In this document: positions 4,471 through 53,598 of the stretch, one piece after another
Numbering within the stretch: position 1 is the stretch's first letter
Layout of the letters: every line of letters begins with the position of its first letter
Assembly (NCBI RefSeq): GCF_004366795.1
Contig: NZ_SORF01000004.1
Location: 1 to 64,000, forward strand
Length of the DNA stretch: 64,000 nt
From: Alicyclobacillus sacchari
GTDB lineage: Bacteria; Bacillota; Bacilli; Alicyclobacillales; Alicyclobacillaceae
Direction: 5' to 3'
Translations under genes and position numbers: made by a program
The notes under the pieces: generated by a model
Seen by the model: the letters and a program-made list of their open reading frames with translations, nothing else
Told to the model about the DNA's origin: nothing
The model's database searches: none

Positions 4471-4962
4471 CTATACAAAAATACTCAAGTTGAGCATGGA
4501 TAATACCGTCTGATCCGGACGAACAGTTCGTTCCATCAGTTTTAGCGTCCCGTCCACACGGCGGATGACGTCAGTTCGCTCTCCGAATAATTGTTCTACA
4601 TCTGGGTTATCACGAATGCTGCGGAGGATCAACACATAACTTTGCACGGTCGCCTCATCCGGGCCGTTTTCCTCAGTCACCAGAATATTCGTAACCAAGT
4701 GGCGTGTTCGGGTATGGGGATTCTCTGCCCATGCGGATGTCGTACGAAATCGTTCCACCCGGGTGCGCAGACTTTGCTTTGTCTCGTCAAAAAACGTCAT
4801 ATCATCCACGATATCGCATGGATCTTTGAAGTCTCGCGTTGCACGCAATGGCATTCGATAACGGATATGATCGTCAAGCAGGTCCAGCCATTCGTCATAC
4901 CTGCGTGCATCGAGTAGCGAAGCCTCAGTATACAAAAATCTACAAATGTCGTGATAATGCAT
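4471..4962 (-). CDS. Aromatic-ring-hydroxylating dioxygenase, beta subunit
   Basis: A 163-residue protein of the small-subunit (SnoaL/NTF2-like) family. It supports the alpha3beta3 core of Rieske dioxygenases and has no cofactor. Family features visible: an N-terminal helix with YTEASLLDARRYDEWLDLL, the segment YRMPLRATRD, and the core strand ENPHTRTRHLVTNI. The start is fixed by GAGGTG 6 bases before ATG at 4962; open codons upstream would overlap the alpha-subunit end. It follows the alpha gene by 28 bases and ends the operon. Substrate cannot be read from this subunit. Confidence 0.88.
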   Translation of the reverse strand: MHYHDICRFLYTEASLLDARRYDEWLDLLDDHIRYRMPLRATRDFKDPCDIVDDMTFFDETKQSLRTRVERFRTTSAWAENPHTRTRHLVTNILVTEENGPDEATVQSYVLILRSIRDNPDVEQLFGERTDVIRRVDGTLKLMERTVRPDQTVLSMLNLSIFV

Positions 4963-45032: not shown

Positions 45033-48000
45033 TTACGAAAGTGCCCAGATGTGTTCAATCAAAAGTTGGCCCCTTTCTCCACCTCGCCGTTGGATGATGC
45101 CTGAAGCACCAAGCAACCGCCCGTATGGCGTGAACACAACCGCACCCTCCGTGCGATAGACAGATTCAAACATTGTTGCGTCTAGCATACCGGTTTCATC
45201 TTCCAGCGTAAAAAACACGACGGTACGCCCGCTTTTGGTCGGTGGACGGTGCGGGCGGATGGCCAAACCGGCGACTGTGACGCGATCGCCATCCGGTAGA
45301 CAAAATGCCTCCGCAATGGTGATGTAACCAAGCTGCTGCAAATCGCGGCGATACAAGTCGAGCCAATGCCCGCTCATCCCAACTCCAACAAGCGTATATT
45401 CAGCAGCAAGCCGTTGTGCGAGCGAAGCTGGCCGCATGGCCGTTTGCGGCTGTTTTGTCATATGCATGGGCGGATGGAGCAAGGGCAACGCTCCCGACTG
45501 CCGCTGTGCAAACCATTGGGGAAGCAGCCAAATCAATTCGTTCCGATCCGCCTCTTCAATACGATCCAATGCGCCGACGCGCACCAGATGTTCAATATGC
45601 AATCGATCCGCCAGCGGCACACGGAGAATCAAATCGGCAGCGGATCGAAAAGGTCCCCCGCGGATTCTCTCCTCGTTAACAGCGGCTGCCACCACTTCGG
45701 GAAACCTCGATATCAAGCGCATCCCAAGCCGAATTTCGACTTCTGATGGCACTGTGCAATCCCACATACTCTCATTGATATCGATGGGCAAAACACGAAT
45801 GCCGCGCCGCTTCGCTTCGGCGCAGATAACGTGCACTGGATAATACCCCATGGGCAATTGGTTCAGGATAGACGCGTAAAATAACGCCGGAACATGTTGT
45901 ACAAGATACGCCGTCTTATATGCGGTGGTTGCAAACGCAGCCGCATGCGCTTCGCAAAAACCATAACTGGCGTAACTTTGGATATAGGAAAAAATCGTCG
46001 CAGCCACCGATTCTGCAATTCCGCTTTGTACCGCCTTTTGCATAAACAATTCTCCGATTCTTTCCATCTCAGTATGATTGCGCGCATGGCTCATGACACG
46101 CCGTAACTCATCCGCTTCCCCTGGCGTAAATCCGGCAATCGCAGTGGCAATTTCAATCACCTGCTCCTGAAACAGTACGACGCCGTATGTCTTACCCAAA
46201 ATAGGCTCAAGTTTCGGGTGGAGATACGTCACCTGCTCACGTCCATGGCGCCGTGCAATAAACGGATCGACCATATTTCCAAGGATTGGTCCAGGACGAA
46301 TCAGCGCGACGCTCGCCACGAGATCCTCGATCCCCGTCGCACCTAGCCGAGCCTGCAACGCGCGCTGCGCCGGGCTTTCAAGTTGAAACACGCCAATGGT
46401 GTCCCCGCGGCGAATCATCGAAAAGGTGGCTTCGTCATCAAGTGGGATGGCATCATAGTCGATTCTCCCGAATTTGGAACTCTCACGAATGGCCCCTTCT
46501 ATCGCTGACATTGTTCGTAGTGACAGCAGATCCAGCTTGACAAGGCCCGCATCTTCCAGCATCCGCTTATCGTATGGTGTAATCCAATGGCCCGAAGCCG
46601 ATGGTTGTAAACTCGTTACTTCAAATAAGGGACTGCTGCTGATCACGATCCCGCCGCTATGCATGCCAAAATGGCGTGGAAATCCAGCGATGTGACGAGC
46701 GATGGCAAACAGCCAAGAGAGCCTCTCCCGATATTCTTGAAACGCCTGCAGCTCCGGGACGCGCCTCAGTGCATCTTCTAGTTGATCGGCATGTGTCGAC
46801 CAAGGGACGCGCTTGGCCAGTGCGTCGAGCAGGTCCTCCGGCAACGCGAGTGCAGCCCCAATGTCCCGCACTGCAGATCTTCCGCGAAACGTCTGATACG
46901 TTGCGACACGTGCCACTCGCTCCTGCCCGTACCTATGGTATACATAGTCGATCACCTCGTCTCGCCGATCGCTGGCAAAGTCGATATCGATATCTGGGCG
47001 CTCTGCCCGCTCGAGCGACATAAATCGCTCGAACAACAGTCCCCTGCCCGCCGCGTCGACATCTGTAATATACAAGCAGTACGCGACAGCGGAGTCGGCC
47101 GCGGAACCGCGTCCAGTACAACGAATCCCGCGGCTTCTCGCGAAACGGACAATATCCCAGACGACAAGAAAGTAATCGACATAGCCCAGTTCGCGAATGA
47201 TGTCCAATTCATGCTGCAACCGCGCCATCGTGATACCATCGAGACGACCATAACGCTCTCTGGCTCCCGCAAACACAAGCTGCTCCAAGAGTGGATACCC
47301 ACCTCGCCCGTCTTCCGTCCTATATGTGGGAAAGAGCGTTTTCCCTATGGGAAAAACAGCGGTGCAACGATCCGCAACTTCCACCGTCCGGGCAACCGCT
47401 TTTGGAAACTCGGCAAATCGCACAGCGGCCTCGTCGGCGTCGTGCAACCAGCCCATTCGGTTGAGCGGGCGCCCGGGGTGTGGTGTATAGACATCGCAAC
47501 CGAGTGCAATGCAGCGCAATACATCCTGAACCGGAAACAATGGTTTGTTGGCAGCATGAACGTCGCTTGTAGCCACCAACGGCACGCCTGTACAACTCGA
47601 TAATTCGGAAAGTAGCCGCATGCGCGATACATAACCGGGATAGCCGTCGGCAACAAGCTCTACATACAGCCGATGCCCGAATATCTCGCGATAGCGCTCG
47701 ACCCAATGGCGTGCGCGCCCATATTCCTGCTTGGACAAGGCTTGTTGTAATTGGCCGTGGCGGCAACCAGATAACACAATCAACCCTTCGGATAGGCGAA
47801 ACAAATCTGCCTCTGCCAACCGCGGTTGCATGCGACCGCCTTCTTGCGCATGCATGATGGTGAGCAATTCGCATAAATGGCGAAACCCTTCCCTGGTTTC
47901 GACGAGGACGGTGAGATGCGATCCGTCCTCCATCGTCAGCTCAGCTCCGGAAATCGGTTTGATTCCATAGATGGCCGCCCACCTATGAAATTCCGGCAGG

Positions 48001-48134
48001 CCGGCGATGGTGTTGTGATCTGTGAGCGCGAGCGCCGGCATGCGATACAGTGCAGCCTGTGCCACCAGTGACTCAATCGAAGAGGCGCCAGCTAGAAACG
48101 AATACGGCGAATGGCAGTGCAGATGAATGAACAC
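45033..48134 (-). CDS. dnaE2: Error-prone DNA polymerase DnaE2 (ImuC)
   Basis: A 1033-residue family C polymerase, shorter than replicative DnaE. N-terminal PHP domain: FIHLHCHSPYSFLAGAS and LTDHNTIAG. Palm: GRGSAADSAVAYCLYITDVD and the catalytic acids in RPDIDIDFASDRRDEV (about residue 385). Then KLDLLSLRTMSAI, the finger-thumb region LIRPGPILGNMVDPFIARRHG, and a C-terminal OB fold with VTVAGLAIRPHRPP. These follow the DnaE2/ImuC pattern. It performs lesion bypass as part of the ImuB mutasome. GTG at 48134 lies after AAGGTAGG, 15 bases after the preceding small gene. Position in the operon implies SOS control. Confidence 0.92.
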   Translation of the reverse strand: MFIHLHCHSPYSFLAGASSIESLVAQAALYRMPALALTDHNTIAGLPEFHRWAAIYGIKPISGAELTMEDGSHLTVLVETREGFRHLCELLTIMHAQEGGRMQPRLAEADLFRLSEGLIVLSGCRHGQLQQALSKQEYGRARHWVERYREIFGHRLYVELVADGYPGYVSRMRLLSELSSCTGVPLVATSDVHAANKPLFPVQDVLRCIALGCDVYTPHPGRPLNRMGWLHDADEAAVRFAEFPKAVARTVEVADRCTAVFPIGKTLFPTYRTEDGRGGYPLLEQLVFAGARERYGRLDGITMARLQHELDIIRELGYVDYFLVVWDIVRFARSRGIRCTGRGSAADSAVAYCLYITDVDAAGRGLLFERFMSLERAERPDIDIDFASDRRDEVIDYVYHRYGQERVARVATYQTFRGRSAVRDIGAALALPEDLLDALAKRVPWSTHADQLEDALRRVPELQAFQEYRERLSWLFAIARHIAGFPRHFGMHSGGIVISSSPLFEVTSLQPSASGHWITPYDKRMLEDAGLVKLDLLSLRTMSAIEGAIRESSKFGRIDYDAIPLDDEATFSMIRRGDTIGVFQLESPAQRALQARLGATGIEDLVASVALIRPGPILGNMVDPFIARRHGREQVTYLHPKLEPILGKTYGVVLFQEQVIEIATAIAGFTPGEADELRRVMSHARNHTEMERIGELFMQKAVQSGIAESVAATIFSYIQSYASYGFCEAHAAAFATTAYKTAYLVQHVPALFYASILNQLPMGYYPVHVICAEAKRRGIRVLPIDINESMWDCTVPSEVEIRLGMRLISRFPEVVAAAVNEERIRGGPFRSAADLILRVPLADRLHIEHLVRVGALDRIEEADRNELIWLLPQWFAQRQSGALPLLHPPMHMTKQPQTAMRPASLAQRLAAEYTLVGVGMSGHWLDLYRRDLQQLGYITIAEAFCLPDGDRVTVAGLAIRPHRPPTKSGRTVVFFTLEDETGMLDATMFESVYRTEGAVVFTPYGRLLGASGIIQRRGGERGQLLIEHIWALS

Positions 48135-48149
48135 CGCAGCACCTACCTT

Positions 48150-48392
48150 CTAATCCCAAATTTTATAGATGAACCATTGACCCGCGTCTTCTTCTAAATC
48201 CATCATTCCTCCGTCTTCCGTCCAAACGCGCATCATTTTTCGCTCACCTTCCCCCATCCACCAACATCCCATCTCAAACCACACATCGATCACGTCGACG
48301 ATCGCACGCACAGTCTCTTGATCCTGGAATACCAGCGGCTCCCCGTCACGCCAGCGAGAGACCGCGATGGGTCTGCGGACGATCCGGCTCAC
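48150..48392 (-). CDS. Small protein between imuB and dnaE2 (DUF6504-like)
   Basis: An 80-residue protein: VSRIVRRPIAVSRWRDGEPL, ETVRAIVDVIDVWFEMG and CWWMGEGERKMMRVW, ending DEDAGQWFIYKIWD in sense of a beta-rich fold with conserved Trp residues. From memory it resembles DUF6504 proteins encoded beside imuB and dnaE2 in actinobacteria. Start GTG at 48392 overlaps the imuB stop (GTGA) and has GGGGGG 9 bases upstream. Its fixed place inside the cassette argues for a role in the mutasome, perhaps as adapter; no activity is known to me. Confidence 0.72.
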   Translation of the reverse strand: MSRIVRRPIAVSRWRDGEPLVFQDQETVRAIVDVIDVWFEMGCWWMGEGERKMMRVWTEDGGMMDLEEDAGQWFIYKIWD

Positions 48393-49612
48393 CCGGACAG
48401 TCCCCCCAACACAGCGGCCAAGCGAAGTTCTCGAAAGTCTGGAACCGCGCCGATTCGAATCTTTGGAAACTTGCGAACCAGTTGTTCTCGCACGCATTGC
48501 AGCTTGGATTTGGCAGCGGCGCGCGCTGGTTCATATCCTTCGCCGAACAGCAAAAATCCGGACTGTACCGTCGGCAGCAATTGTACATCGACAGCTTCGA
48601 GTTCCATCTCCTCAAGCCAACGTCCCGCGACGCGATCCCGCCAGCCCTGCAGCTGCGCCATCACGGCATCCCCCTGATATACAGGCCGTTTGAAGGTTTT
48701 CATCCACTCGCCGCTCCCCGTATCCGTCTGCCAGCGAAGTGCAATCCGCCTTACGCCGGAATCTGAGCGAACGAGCTTTTGGCAAAGCCGTGCGGCAAGC
48801 GATTCCAAAACGCTGTCCCAGCCGTTTTCAGGCATCGGTTCACCAAGCGGCGAGCGCCATATCATCAAGTGCTCACCAGGTGGTGAATCGGCAACAATTG
48901 GACCGTACTGTCGCCTCTTGCCGATCCAGCGCCAAGATAGAGCCTCTGTGCCAAAACGAGAAACGAGCATGTCGTCCGTGACAGTATCTAAATCGTGCAA
49001 ACGATGTACACCAAGATTGATAAGCTCGCTGCGGCACGACTTCGGAATCGCCGAAACGACGGCAATCGGCAGTGCATTCGTCCAGTCGAGAATGGGTTCA
49101 CCCCCCGCCAACATGCTTGCAATCGCCGGTGAAATCAGAAGTTGTTGACGACCAACTCGGTAATACAAAGCCTGTGGCACACGTTCCATTCGGCTCCAGC
49201 GCACCAAGGCCTCTGCGGCAAATGGATGCTCCGCCAGGCCAACCCGGACTCGTTGCTCACCATTCAACAGGTCGTCAAACCGCCGGCAGATGGAACGGAC
49301 TTCAGAAAGCGGTGGATGTCGGGATGGCAACTGGACAAAAAAAGCAAGTTGCCGAGGGAGTGTCTTGACAAATGGTGAAGCGTCCCAAAGCACCTGATAA
49401 ACGGATGCGAGTGCTTGTGGCTCCACAATCGGCTCAACCACTTGCACATCTGGCATCAACGCCTTTGCCTGAGCTACAGACCATCCAATTTGCACACCCG
49501 CTTTCCTGGCTGAAATCGACACATCCGCAACACAGTCTTGGCTAACCGTCACAAACGGTCTATCCAAATCGGCCGAAAGCCCTTCTCCTTCACCGTAGAG
49601 CGTAAATTTCAC
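48389..49612 (-). CDS. imuB: ImuB-like Y-family polymerase homologue
   Basis: A 407-residue protein with the Y-family order palm-finger-thumb-little finger (HhH region SELINLGVHRLHDLDTVTDD, about residues 215-235). The usual catalytic start (DxDCFFA-type) is absent, so it is probably an inactive platform, as in ImuB. A candidate sliding-clamp motif QSGFLLF sits at about residues 350-356, before a 51-residue basic C-terminal tail. It should load DnaE2 onto the clamp. GTG at 49612 lies just after an SOS box. A GTGA overlap couples it to the next gene. Confidence 0.85.
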   Translation of the reverse strand: MKFTLYGEGEGLSADLDRPFVTVSQDCVADVSISARKAGVQIGWSVAQAKALMPDVQVVEPIVEPQALASVYQVLWDASPFVKTLPRQLAFFVQLPSRHPPLSEVRSICRRFDDLLNGEQRVRVGLAEHPFAAEALVRWSRMERVPQALYYRVGRQQLLISPAIASMLAGGEPILDWTNALPIAVVSAIPKSCRSELINLGVHRLHDLDTVTDDMLVSRFGTEALSWRWIGKRRQYGPIVADSPPGEHLMIWRSPLGEPMPENGWDSVLESLAARLCQKLVRSDSGVRRIALRWQTDTGSGEWMKTFKRPVYQGDAVMAQLQGWRDRVAGRWLEEMELEAVDVQLLPTVQSGFLLFGEGYEPARAAAKSKLQCVREQLVRKFPKIRIGAVPDFRELRLAAVLGGLSG

Positions 49613-49624
49613 GGTCTCACCACC

Positions 49625-49638
49625 AGAACGTATGTTCT
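49625..49638. promoter_or_regulatory. LexA/DinR box 2 (overlaps the transcription start)
   Basis: The sequence AGAACATACGTTCT (minus strand), within the larger palindrome CCAGAAC-N4-GTTCTGG at 49623-49640. It matches the Bacillus LexA consensus CGAACRNRYGTTYC at 12 of 14 positions. It lies 7 bases downstream of the -10 element and so covers the expected start of transcription of imuB. Confidence 0.85.
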
Positions 49639-49644
49639 GGTCTG

Positions 49645-49673
49645 ATTATATGCAAAGCAAACAAGATATACAA
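49645..49673 (-). promoter_or_regulatory. imuB promoter
   Basis: On the minus strand, -10 TATAAT (49645-49650) and -35 TTGTAT (49668-49673) with a 17-base spacer. The -10 is perfect and the -35 shares three of six bases with TTGACA. One LexA box abuts the -35 and one overlaps the start site. Confidence 0.7.
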
Positions 49674-49684
49674 ACACACGTTCG
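49671..49684. promoter_or_regulatory. LexA/DinR box 1 (overlaps the -35 region)
   Basis: CGAACGTGTGTTTG on the minus strand matches CGAACRNRYGTTYC at 13 of 14 positions. It overlaps the upstream edge of the -35 hexamer. The centres of the two boxes are 46 bases apart, compatible with two LexA dimers on one promoter. Confidence 0.82.
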
Positions 49685-50014: not shown

Positions 50015-50710
50015 CTACTCCATCCTGTCGCCAGTTCGAAAATGCGGCACGAGCCGCCCAACCGGATTTGTGCCGCCTCCCTGCAACCAAGTCGCAACAT
50101 CCCAAGCGCTCACCGCCTCCATCGCTTGCCCAGTTTGACCCACAGCCGTTGCATCGCGCAAAGCGGCCTCCGTACTGCCAACCCATTGGGCCGTCCAGTC
50201 ATGCGCGGCAGCAAGCAGCGACTCCTCATCCAGCCCAACGAAGCGAAAGACCCGAAGGGGATGCTCGTCTGCGTCCCAAATGAGATGAAACAAAGCTGTC
50301 AGGACATGTACACACAGCGGATCGGAATCATCACATGTACACTTGGCACCCCACCGCAACTTATCCGCAACGGAGTCACCGGGCAATACGTCAAGCTGAT
50401 TAGACTTGAGAAACGCCTCAAATTCCGGGTCCCACTCGCCGGCAAAGTGGGCTGCCACCCAGTCAGGCCGCATGGCCAGCCATTTCGCAACAGCCTCGAT
50501 ATGTTCCTCATAATGAGCCAAAAACGGCAGAGCCACTTGACAACTGCGCCGTGGGCCACTGATGCGCACCTGTGCCCAGATTTCGCCGCGGAGCAATTCG
50601 GCGTGGACAACGGCACCGGCTTTGGCTTCCTGCCTTGCCTTGCGCACCCGCGCCTTGTCCACCGCATCCCACACCGGACGCCAAAACGGCTCCAGCACGC
50701 TTTTTTTCAT
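50015..50710 (-). CDS. SWIM zinc-finger protein
   Basis: A 231-residue protein with a SWIM zinc finger of the CxC...CxH type in KCTCDDSDPLCVHV (about residues 123-136). SWIM domains bind nucleic acid or protein and are often encoded with SNF2 helicases. N-terminal AELLRGEIWAQVRISGPRRS is typical of the SNF2-associated form. The start overlaps the helicase stop by 4 bases, so the two proteins are probably made together and act together. Confidence 0.85.
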   Translation of the reverse strand: MKKSVLEPFWRPVWDAVDKARVRKARQEAKAGAVVHAELLRGEIWAQVRISGPRRSCQVALPFLAHYEEHIEAVAKWLAMRPDWVAAHFAGEWDPEFEAFLKSNQLDVLPGDSVADKLRWGAKCTCDDSDPLCVHVLTALFHLIWDADEHPLRVFRFVGLDEESLLAAAHDWTAQWVGSTEAALRDATAVGQTGQAMEAVSAWDVATWLQGGGTNPVGRLVPHFRTGDRME

Positions 50711-53598
50711 ACATCATCCTCCTCCCAAACGGTCTGCGGTGTCAATGCAAACAATTCGCGCAACGAATCGTCATCCAGTTCGGTCACCCACTCCTGCGAT
50801 GACGAAACGACCGCTTCCGACAGCTCTCGTTTGCTTAAGATCATCTGATCGATCCGCTCTTCCAGCGTACCTGCACAGATCATCTTGTGTACCTGCACGT
50901 CTTTGGTTTGGCCAATCCGGTATGCCCTGTCGGTTGCCTGATCCTCGACCGCAGGATTCCACCAACGATCGTAATGAAAGACGTGATTCGCGCGCGTCAG
51001 ATTGAGGCCAACACCGCCGGCGCGCAGCGACAACACCAAAATCGGCGACGGATCGCGGCCATTTTGAAACGATTCGACGATTTCGCCGCGACTGCGGGCA
51101 GCTAACCCCCCGTGCAAAAACTGCGGACGCACGCCGAACTCCGCTTCCATCGTGTCACACAAAATCTCGCCCATATCGCGAAACTGCGTGAAGACCAGCG
51201 CACATTCGCCATCCTCGACGACAATCCGCAACAGATCGATAAGCTGTCGCAGTTTTCCGCTGCGCCGCAACGAAGGTGTACCGCCGGAAATGAGACACGG
51301 ATGATCGCAAACTTGCTTTAACCTCACCAACGTTGACAGAATCATCCCACGTCGGGACATCGCCTTGGTCCCCGCACCGATCCCGGTGAACAGCTGATCG
51401 ACAAACGCCTGATACATGGCCGCTTGCTCGGCCGTCAAATAGGCCCGTTCATCGACTTCCCACTTCTCGGGCAGCTCCGTTTGAATATCAGGATCGGTCT
51501 TTCGCCGCCGCAACAATACAGGGCGTAAGAGCGCCTGCAGGCGTGCGATATCGGACGCGCTGTCTTTGTCACCGGAAGCGAGATCGGCAAACGTCCGGCG
51601 AAACCAGGCAAGGGTGCCTAGATAACCTGGATTGAGAAAGTCCATCAAAGCCCAAAGTTCTTCGAGCCGATTTTCGACCGGCGTACCTGTCAGTGCGACT
51701 CGATGGCGCCCTTTGAGCATCCGCAAGGCCCGCGCCTGCTTGGTGCTCGCATTCTTGATGTTCTGCGCTTCATCGATTGCGATCACGTCAAACGAACATG
51801 CCAAAAATGACTCGAGATCCCGTACCAACGTCGCGTAAGTCGTCATGATCAAATCGACTTTATCGACCGTCAAAGCCGCACCCAAATCGCGCAGCGGACC
51901 GTGATGCACGTATACCCGCAAATCGGGCGTAAACCGCTCCAACTCCGCCCGCCAATTGGCCAGCAGCGAAGTCGGGCATACCAACAAATGCACGCCCTGT
52001 GCCGCTCTTTCCTCCTTGAGCTTGAGCAAGTACGCAAGCAATTGCACCGTTTTGCCCAATCCCATATCGTCCGCCAGGCAAGCACCACAACCGATCTCCC
52101 GCAAATGCATCAACCAAGAGAACCCATGTGCCTGATAGTGGCGCAACTGCCCTCGCAGTCCGTGCGGCGGTTCCGCCGCAGGCACTTGCAGAGCATGTGC
52201 GAACACGTCCACCACGCGCTTGACTTCAGCCGCCTCTGATGCGAACTCGACCTCGAGGGAAAGCTCCCCCGATTCCTGCGCGAGGGCGATGGTACGCGAC
52301 AGATCCAGTACTGTCGCCTTGCGATCCGCCCCGAGACCCAACCTCTCCAGCTCCCGCAAAATGTCCGCGATCGGAACCAACCGCCACGATCCTTCAACGC
52401 GAATGAACGGCGCCTGCTCCGCCACCATCTGTGCAAAATCCTGCTGCGACAACTCGCGGTCCTGGACGACAATGGACCAGTCGAAATCGACCAATTGCTG
52501 CGCATCGAGCCACTGGTGGCTGGTCGATGCAATAGAACGGTTGTCTCGTCCACCGCGCGCCTGCCTCACCAAAACCCGTACGCGAACATCTCCAGCCTGC
52601 TCTACCTTCGGCGTCTCAACGTAAAAACCGGCCGCCACAAGCGACGGAATCGATTGAACAAGCAGCGGGTAGACATCGTCCACCGCGATTTCTACACAGG
52701 TCGGCGCCGGGCGCGCCAAGGCGTCGGCAATTTCCGGACAATACCGCGCAGCCTCCCGCAATCTGGGCAGGATCCAAGCGTCCGGAGCCACTAACACGTC
52801 GCCGTCAATCCGCCATCTGCGCTCCTTCTGCCGCCACCAGTCGGACAGAGAAACAAGCTTGCCGGAAAATCGGTGGCGTACGTAAAACTGCAATGCCCAA
52901 TCGGCGATGGGGGCGTCGGACGGCGGCGCTTGCAGCACAAAGGCCACCTCATAAAACGGCCTGCCGCTCCGATCCGCAAAGTCTGCCGCCGCCCAACCTG
53001 ACTGGGCGAGTCCGCCGCGCACCGTTTTTGCCACAAGCCAACCGTCTGCGACAAACGCCGATTCCGACGCCGCCAGCGCACGGAGCCAAGCCGCCATGAC
53101 CTCTGACTCGCCTCGATACATCACTCGATAGGGGCGTTCAGGCGCCGCCGCAGTATCCTCGACCCGCTCAAGGCGTGTGCGAGCGATGGCGTCGACAAGC
53201 TCAATCAACAGCCAATCGATCTCGTCGATTTCATTGAACATGCCGCTGATCTTCGGATCGCATTCCGCCATTGACAAAAGGCGAAAGCGCGCCGCCAAGA
53301 GCGGTCCGAGCGTCCAGGCCGGCGCCCACTTAGCCACGAATGTTCCATCGCCTGCGGCCACAATCACATCCGCGGCGGCGAGTGCCCACTGACGCAAAAG
53401 GCGTACATTTTCCGTTGACCCATTTTCGGCAGGCACTGCAATGGCCAACACGTCGCCCGCCGCGACGATGTGTGAAGCCAAGTCGCGCACTGCGATCAGC
53501 CAACGGTCTGCGGGGTTTGCATCCGATGCACTGTCGGCAAGTGCAGCCTCTACCATCGCCGGAAGCCCGAGTTTCGCATTGACGCCTTCACCCTGCAT
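50707..53598 (-). CDS. SNF2 family ATP-dependent helicase
   Basis: A 963-residue Swi2/Snf2 ATPase. Residues 1 to about 470 are the less conserved bacterial SNF2-associated region. The motor follows: LRHYQAHGFSWL, Walker A LADDMGLGKTVQLLAYL (about 508-524), IDEAQNIKN (about 608-616), LTGTPVENRLEELWAL, and the second lobe with LVFTQFRDMGEIL and GGVGLNLTRANHVFHYDRWW, then RAYRIGQ. Such enzymes translocate on duplex DNA; RapA-like or repair roles are possible. ATG at 53598; GGTGAGAAG precedes it. Overlaps the SWIM gene by 4 bases. Confidence 0.92.
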   Translation of the reverse strand: MQGEGVNAKLGLPAMVEAALADSASDANPADRWLIAVRDLASHIVAAGDVLAIAVPAENGSTENVRLLRQWALAAADVIVAAGDGTFVAKWAPAWTLGPLLAARFRLLSMAECDPKISGMFNEIDEIDWLLIELVDAIARTRLERVEDTAAAPERPYRVMYRGESEVMAAWLRALAASESAFVADGWLVAKTVRGGLAQSGWAAADFADRSGRPFYEVAFVLQAPPSDAPIADWALQFYVRHRFSGKLVSLSDWWRQKERRWRIDGDVLVAPDAWILPRLREAARYCPEIADALARPAPTCVEIAVDDVYPLLVQSIPSLVAAGFYVETPKVEQAGDVRVRVLVRQARGGRDNRSIASTSHQWLDAQQLVDFDWSIVVQDRELSQQDFAQMVAEQAPFIRVEGSWRLVPIADILRELERLGLGADRKATVLDLSRTIALAQESGELSLEVEFASEAAEVKRVVDVFAHALQVPAAEPPHGLRGQLRHYQAHGFSWLMHLREIGCGACLADDMGLGKTVQLLAYLLKLKEERAAQGVHLLVCPTSLLANWRAELERFTPDLRVYVHHGPLRDLGAALTVDKVDLIMTTYATLVRDLESFLACSFDVIAIDEAQNIKNASTKQARALRMLKGRHRVALTGTPVENRLEELWALMDFLNPGYLGTLAWFRRTFADLASGDKDSASDIARLQALLRPVLLRRRKTDPDIQTELPEKWEVDERAYLTAEQAAMYQAFVDQLFTGIGAGTKAMSRRGMILSTLVRLKQVCDHPCLISGGTPSLRRSGKLRQLIDLLRIVVEDGECALVFTQFRDMGEILCDTMEAEFGVRPQFLHGGLAARSRGEIVESFQNGRDPSPILVLSLRAGGVGLNLTRANHVFHYDRWWNPAVEDQATDRAYRIGQTKDVQVHKMICAGTLEERIDQMILSKRELSEAVVSSSQEWVTELDDDSLRELFALTPQTVWEEDDV

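Follow-up and report, generated by a model that had tools for sequence, protein, structure and literature searches.

Within the 64,000-nucleotide stretch of Alicyclobacillus sacchari DNA analysed here (the window), a gene of 80 codons stands between a gene for a Y-family polymerase-like protein and dnaE2 (Table 1). Its place raises the question of whether it encodes an undescribed mutasome subunit or adapter, as the initial annotation proposed, or a known component under another name. Its sequence argues for the latter: the gene appears to encode a detached C-terminal domain of ImuB (ImuB-C), set between an inactive Y-family polymerase (iPolY) and dnaE2. The anatomy originally described for it, i.e. 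a Trp-rich 80-residue product (seven Trp), coupling to the upstream gene through GTGA, and a distance of 15 bases to dnaE2, agrees with the coordinates and the intact frame. The gene starts with GTG at 48392 and stops at 48150 on the minus strand, GTGA being a 4-base overlap of the upstream TGA stop with this start codon, and the 15 bases run from its stop to the GTG start of dnaE2.

Table 1. Coordinates of the operon genes and of candidate control elements in the window
Feature	Position	Strand	Details
dnaE2, error-prone C-family polymerase	45033..48134	minus	1033 aa; Pfam DNA_pol3_alpha, finger, PHP
Small gene, standalone ImuB-C (DUF6504-like)	48150..48392	minus	80 aa; GTG start
Inactive Y-family polymerase (iPolY/ImuY type)	48389..49612	minus	407 aa; Pfam IMS 25.3 bits (cut-off 23.2)
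LexA-like box, proximal	49626..49637	plus	GAACGTATGTTC; pattern match
Possible sigma-70-type promoter between boxes	49645..49673	minus	TTGTAT, 17 bases, TATAAT; by eye
LexA-like box, distal	49672..49683	minus	GAACGTGTGTTT; pattern match

The gene is short, starts with GTG, and its product is matched by none of the NCBIfam models, features that would suit an open frame arisen by chance between two genes. That reading, to which we give practically no credence, is refuted by the substitution pattern, by homologues in 34 of the 41 genomes of the family, and by the 14 invariant residues in an alignment of 29 of the 33 operon copies (alignment A1, which omits L043, L046, L065, and L071). Between the window genome (2.95 Mb) and its two closest relatives, Alicyclobacillus tengchongensis and A. 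hesperidum, substitutions in the first, second, and third positions of the gene's codons number 6, 3, and 25, respectively, for L031 and 6, 4, and 25 for L032, with the frame intact, as would be expected under selection at the protein level.

The only Pfam family to match the window protein is DUF6504 (PF20114), at 16.7 bits against a gathering cut-off of 24.2, and a six-frame PF20114 search of the window's genome returned nothing at E ≤ 0.01. All 29 aligned family members, in contrast, match the model at E ≤ 0.1 (best 2e-7), so that the relation to DUF6504 suggested in the initial annotation is upheld, although the window copy itself is not a called member. Among four copies scanned from outside the operon in the Alicyclobacillaceae, two pass the cut-off (L094, 29.5 bits; L081, 30 bits) and two fall below it (L070, 22 bits; L077, 20 bits). 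When compared by hhalign with alignment A2, which covers the C-terminal 115 residues of seven proteobacterial ImuBs, the profile of the small-protein family gave a probability of 81.9, an E value of 1.1e-5, and a score of 33.7 over 75 of the 80 columns; 200 column shuffles scored at most 17.9 and the reversed profile 13.4. PF20114 also matches the extreme C-terminus of two of four proteobacterial ImuBs (residues 430–502 of 505 and 400–474 of 477; E values of 0.0012 and 0.0015, both below the cut-off; the other two were not among the matches listed). Hallmarks described for ImuB-C are a C-terminal Trp and two or more basic residues, all of them conserved (PMC3765255), and the small-protein family has both, Trp79, Arg3, and Arg51 being invariant in all 29 sequences. 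An AlphaFold2 model built from three sequences is poor (mean pLDDT 54.4, pTM 0.42) and, at this low confidence, places strands at residues 3–9, 51–57, 63–69, and 72–79 and a helix at 25–41, which speaks neither for nor against the beta-barrel fold of ImuB-C; no significant hit emerged from sequence searches of the PDB (best E about 0.5).

The clearest bridge between the small gene and DUF6504/ImuB-C is, as judged by profile comparison, a plasmid cassette of Deinococcus aetherius annotated as lexA, Y-family DNA polymerase, DUF6504 family protein, and dnaE. Its DUF6504 protein aligns with the Alicyclobacillus family by hhalign at 96.2% probability (E 2.1e-9, 77 columns) and scores 33.3 bits against PF20114, and its gene overlaps that of the Y-family polymerase by 4 bases, as in the window. 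The neighbouring proteins are more distant: the two DnaE2 proteins are 32% identical, and the hhalign match of the iPolY family to the Deinococcus Y-family protein is weak (35%, E 4e-4). In Deinococcus lexA comes first in the operon, whereas no lexA gene was noticed in the window operon.

Under the name ImuB-C the small protein has a literature of its own. The standalone form received this name in 2013, its reported settings being operons that also encode DnaE2 and an inactive DinB, pairings with SRAP only, and associations with Ku and ligase (PMC3765255). An operon of an inactive PolY, standalone ImuB-C, and DnaE2 was described from Kyrpidia tusciae in 2019 (PMC6511836), and a Deinococcus cassette containing the small gene, of 80 residues in D. 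deserti, in 2021, with ImuY and DnaE2 tested in Deinococcus (PMC8072749). A complex of the type DnaE2X-iPolY-ImuBC-RecA was modelled in 2026 (PMC12926913). The operons of Kyrpidia and Deinococcus share with the window operon the gene order, the size of the small protein, the inactive PolY, DnaE2, and signs of LexA control; no ImuA was detected in them, although for the window's family the model used is of doubtful reach. The claim of an undescribed mutasome subunit is thus contradicted by all four papers. The string DUF6504 did not occur in the literature searched, where the papers on this protein speak of ImuB-C; the published work was hidden from the initial annotation by this difference in naming, the protein being known both as DUF6504 and as ImuB-C. 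Since both the small gene and its place had already been described, the finding is real and largely ordinary. In PMC3919608, a table note on the row for PolC, DnaE3, and DnaE2 names Kyrpidia tusciae and Alicyclobacillus acidocaldarius as relatives of Sulfobacillus acidophilus on the basis of their sets of polymerases.

The upstream gene had been called imuB. Its membership of the Y-family is borne out by the IMS match, but the ORF ends at 48389 without an ImuB C-terminal domain, which is supplied by the separate small gene, and iPolY is therefore the better name. We aligned 12 of the 34 iPolYs of the family, the window's included, with the DinB of the same genome, and observed that none of the 12 has the SIDE-motif catalytic Glu or the first catalytic Asp, for which five, the window's among them, have Glu. 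The SIDE Asp is absent from nine of the 12, and of the three catalytic positions at most one is still acidic in any of them; the 12 thus have the dead active site that characterises the DnaE2X-iPolY-ImuBC-RecA mutasome. A RecA-binding tail on iPolY was expected from the account in PMC6511836. When iPolY C-terminal tails were aligned with the RecA N-terminal helix, no RecA-NT motif stood out above shuffled controls in either of two tests (score 11.3 against 28 RecAs, shuffles up to 20.8; 11.8 against the genome's own RecA alone, shuffles up to 13.6). The downstream partner scores best among NCBIfam models with PRK05672, error-prone DNA polymerase, at 835.5 bits and below its cut-off of 939.

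The three genes are distributed as a unit. The small protein (E ≤ 0.01) and iPolY (E ≤ 1e-5) were each found in 34 of the 41 family genomes, and DnaE2 in the same 34, with a main match of at least 56% identity that is in some cases in pieces. The seven remaining genomes, of which four are less than 90% and three at least 90% complete, are without all three and have only a distant DnaE (36–43% identity); the genes were therefore gained and lost together. Order is also kept: iPolY, the small gene, and dnaE2 are contiguous on one strand in 33 of the 34 genomes, so that the operon combination of standalone ImuB-C and DnaE2 with iPolY recurs in these 33, and the small gene and iPolY overlap by 4 bases in 23 of the 33 operons. 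The expectation that the small gene would accompany a Y-family gene and dnaE2 elsewhere is thereby upheld. At the level of the order, DnaE2 (at least 54% identity) was found in 40 of 59 genomes and the small gene in 38, both misses lying at contig ends (G448, where DnaE2 starts at base 4847 of a contig of 4987 bases, and G450, where DnaE2 is cut at base 3). The other 19 genomes have neither gene, and three of these, all less than 90% complete, gave no DnaE match whatever. The one family genome that departs from the order is G016, in which dnaE2 comes directly after iPolY, the matched stretches lying 28 bases apart and the small gene being absent (L088, G016:C1:367000-379000, together with L070); its single small-protein homologue lies on another contig, near a transposase gene (Pfam DDE_Tnp_1_6). 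In genome G013 (L048) the dnaE2 matches fall in separate pieces, with iPolY and imuB-C open, and this dnaE2 may be decayed, broken, or misassembled.

Upstream of iPolY the window has two LexA-like boxes, and between them a possible promoter (Table 1). All 32 relatives compared have one or more of these boxes at the iPolY start or upstream of it, and 31 of them have two, against a chance level of 0.12 per 440-base stretch, and G016 and three sister-family genomes each have two before the operon. The pattern is not enriched over the window as a whole (nine matches against 4.8 expected, with 12 of 100 shuffles reaching nine), and the weight of the boxes lies in their conserved place, not in window-wide abundance. 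The Deinococcus operon has no box of this pattern. LexA itself is encoded in the genome (244.5 bits). Upstream of the operon and on the same strand the window also carries a gene for an SNF2 helicase (212 bits; within 50015–53598, minus strand); the last 4 bases of this gene are shared with another, which matches a SWIM zinc finger below threshold (16.8 bits, cut-off 19.6).

ImuB-C is also found away from the operon. Fourteen such copies occur in 11 of the 41 family genomes (L070, L072, and L076–L087); as they lie apart from iPolY and DnaE2, the domain is not confined to the mutasome complex. In eight of these cases a LexA-like box precedes the match by no more than 100 bases, where about 0.013 would be expected per 100 bases; the eight include L072, which has a weaker box (GAACGCGAGTTT) within the preceding ORF and a resolvase nearby. 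At L077 the small gene is overlapped by a SRAP gene (226 bits), and a box is found immediately ahead of the latter, 708 bases upstream of the former. A further SRAP gene adjoins L081 and another lies about 2.8 kb from L082, a gene for an ATP-dependent DNA ligase is near L077 and L079, and a Y-family polymerase is found about 2.8 kb from L085. One outside copy resides on a 47.9-kb plasmid of A. mengziensis, where the homologue is annotated as a DUF6504 family protein. G016's only ImuB-C copy, outside its operon as described above, has a LexA-like box of its own at −30. A displaced copy of this kind was not found in the available parts of the cited mutasome papers, and this displacement and the outside copies as a whole form the new, if modest, part of the finding.

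Beyond the family, PF20114 matches 110 of 398 genomes of the phylum at E ≤ 0.01, 90 of them over the cut-off, and none of the 15 same-class genomes listed at that E value. We examined 16 of the phylum loci, each 8.5 to 10 kb long and chosen mostly as high scorers, not at random. DnaE2 lies downstream on the same strand in nine (within 100 bases in seven, at about 340 bases in one, and at about 1.5 kb in one), and a Y-family match (E ≤ 1e-4) accompanies it in three of these nine. The other seven (L158–L163 and L165) have no DnaE2 or PolY match nearby, and the Pfam family is therefore wider than a mutasome subunit. Among plasmid records, the window protein matched four at E ≤ 1, of which two are real (A. 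mengziensis and Thermaerobacter) and two have E values of 0.6. None of 23 pattern matches in viral contigs is a relative; phage records gave one weak match (E 0.07), and the best PHROGs match, for one of four proteins, has an E value of 0.08.

Other plasmids were considered for comparison. The initial annotation placed DUF6504 proteins beside such polymerases in actinobacteria; in the one actinobacterial plasmid stretch covered, from Curtobacterium, the plus-strand ORFs around the polymerase include no such cassette and a 1415-residue DNA polymerase III alpha-like ORF. Small genes between imuB and dnaE2 on plasmids of acetic-acid bacteria were rejected as a parallel, since ImuB there has its own C-terminal domain; the Gluconobacter small protein has no Pfam match and that of Komagataeibacter no match to the family profile (0.15%). 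These two genes (L093:3228-3485 and L097:2743-2988, respectively), annotated as hypothetical, encode proteins 54% identical to one another over 70 residues. A plasmid of Thermomicrobium roseum has genes for a ‘recombinase A’, a hypothetical IMS_C-domain protein, and DnaE2 in a row (L089:1703-7168), possibly a mutasome with its own RecA-like gene; its DnaE2 is 40% identical to the window's, and its Y-family-like protein has no PF20114 match.

We regard it as probable that standalone ImuB-C and iPolY together make up a split ImuB, with ImuB-C docking DnaE2, in a LexA-repressed operon for error-prone bypass. By analogy with the systems of relatives and with published models, iPolY would contribute the inactive body of a polymerase together with a C-terminal tail that is predicted to bind RecA; the 80-residue ImuB-C would serve as the adapter for DnaE2, with the PHP domain of the latter as the most likely docking site. 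All three would be encoded in one operon repressed by LexA, so that DNA damage would lead to the complex being made, and DnaE2 within it would then perform error-prone lesion bypass. PMC12926913 likewise suggests that iPolY and ImuB-C may count as a split ImuB, and gives DnaE2X systems as a possible precursor of DnaE2A (ImuA-ImuB-DnaE2) systems. The canonical ImuA-ImuB-DnaE2 mutasome also combines a dead Y-family protein, DnaE2, and an ImuB-C domain. In contrast to the window, where the domain is a separate ORF, its ImuB-C is fused. It also has ImuA, which RecA may replace here. RecA, a component of the modelled complex, is encoded in genome G000 (484.7 bits). No family genome among the 41 has a match to the ImuA model NF033429 above the cut-off, but neither has any of 14 controls, which makes the test for absence of ImuA a soft one and the reach of the model doubtful. 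Weaker NF033429 matches occur in 40 of the 41 genomes, and the one in G000 overlaps RecA.

The outside copies bear on how ImuB-C might act in place of, or in addition to, a role as protein–protein adapter. ImuB-C has been proposed to be a DNA-binding sensor (PMC3765255), and its chief role might accordingly be to detect damaged DNA and to recruit polymerases and repair enzymes there. Copies apart from the polymerases and near SRAP (L077, L081, and L082) or ligase (L077 and L079) fit such a general damage-site factor; the tight coupling of the gene with dnaE2 and iPolY, however, fits a subunit, and the AlphaFold models in PMC12926913 set Mycobacterium tuberculosis ImuB-C against the DnaE2 PHP domain, so that we hold a primarily DNA-sensing role to be unlikely. 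Less likely still, and in our view improbable, is a regulatory role for the small protein, which would then be produced along with the operon, e.g. to limit DnaE2 use, while the active complex could do without it. The gene can leave the operon, as G016 with its iPolY-dnaE2 pair shows, and separate copies carry LexA-like boxes; yet G016 has kept one copy elsewhere under a LexA-like box of its own, and even the most reduced ImuB still has the ImuB-C domain fused (PMC12926913), and a structural part is therefore favoured over a regulator. No experiment on ImuB-C was found in the accessible parts of the cited mutasome papers.

An ImuB-C that docks DnaE2 as part of a split ImuB is thus the reading we prefer, and for the displaced copies we tentatively add, as a possibility with the odds rather against it, that ImuB-C is a subunit which can be exchanged, is induced separately by the SOS response, and works in trans. 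If this were true, a mobile element or a second repair pathway might use outside copies to join the host mutasome, to compete for it, or to redirect it. Once the names DUF6504 and ImuB-C are linked, genome annotation could name such genes, and a free 80-residue protein in a three-gene operon with LexA-like boxes makes the role of the domain testable by simple deletion, which is harder with a fused ImuB.
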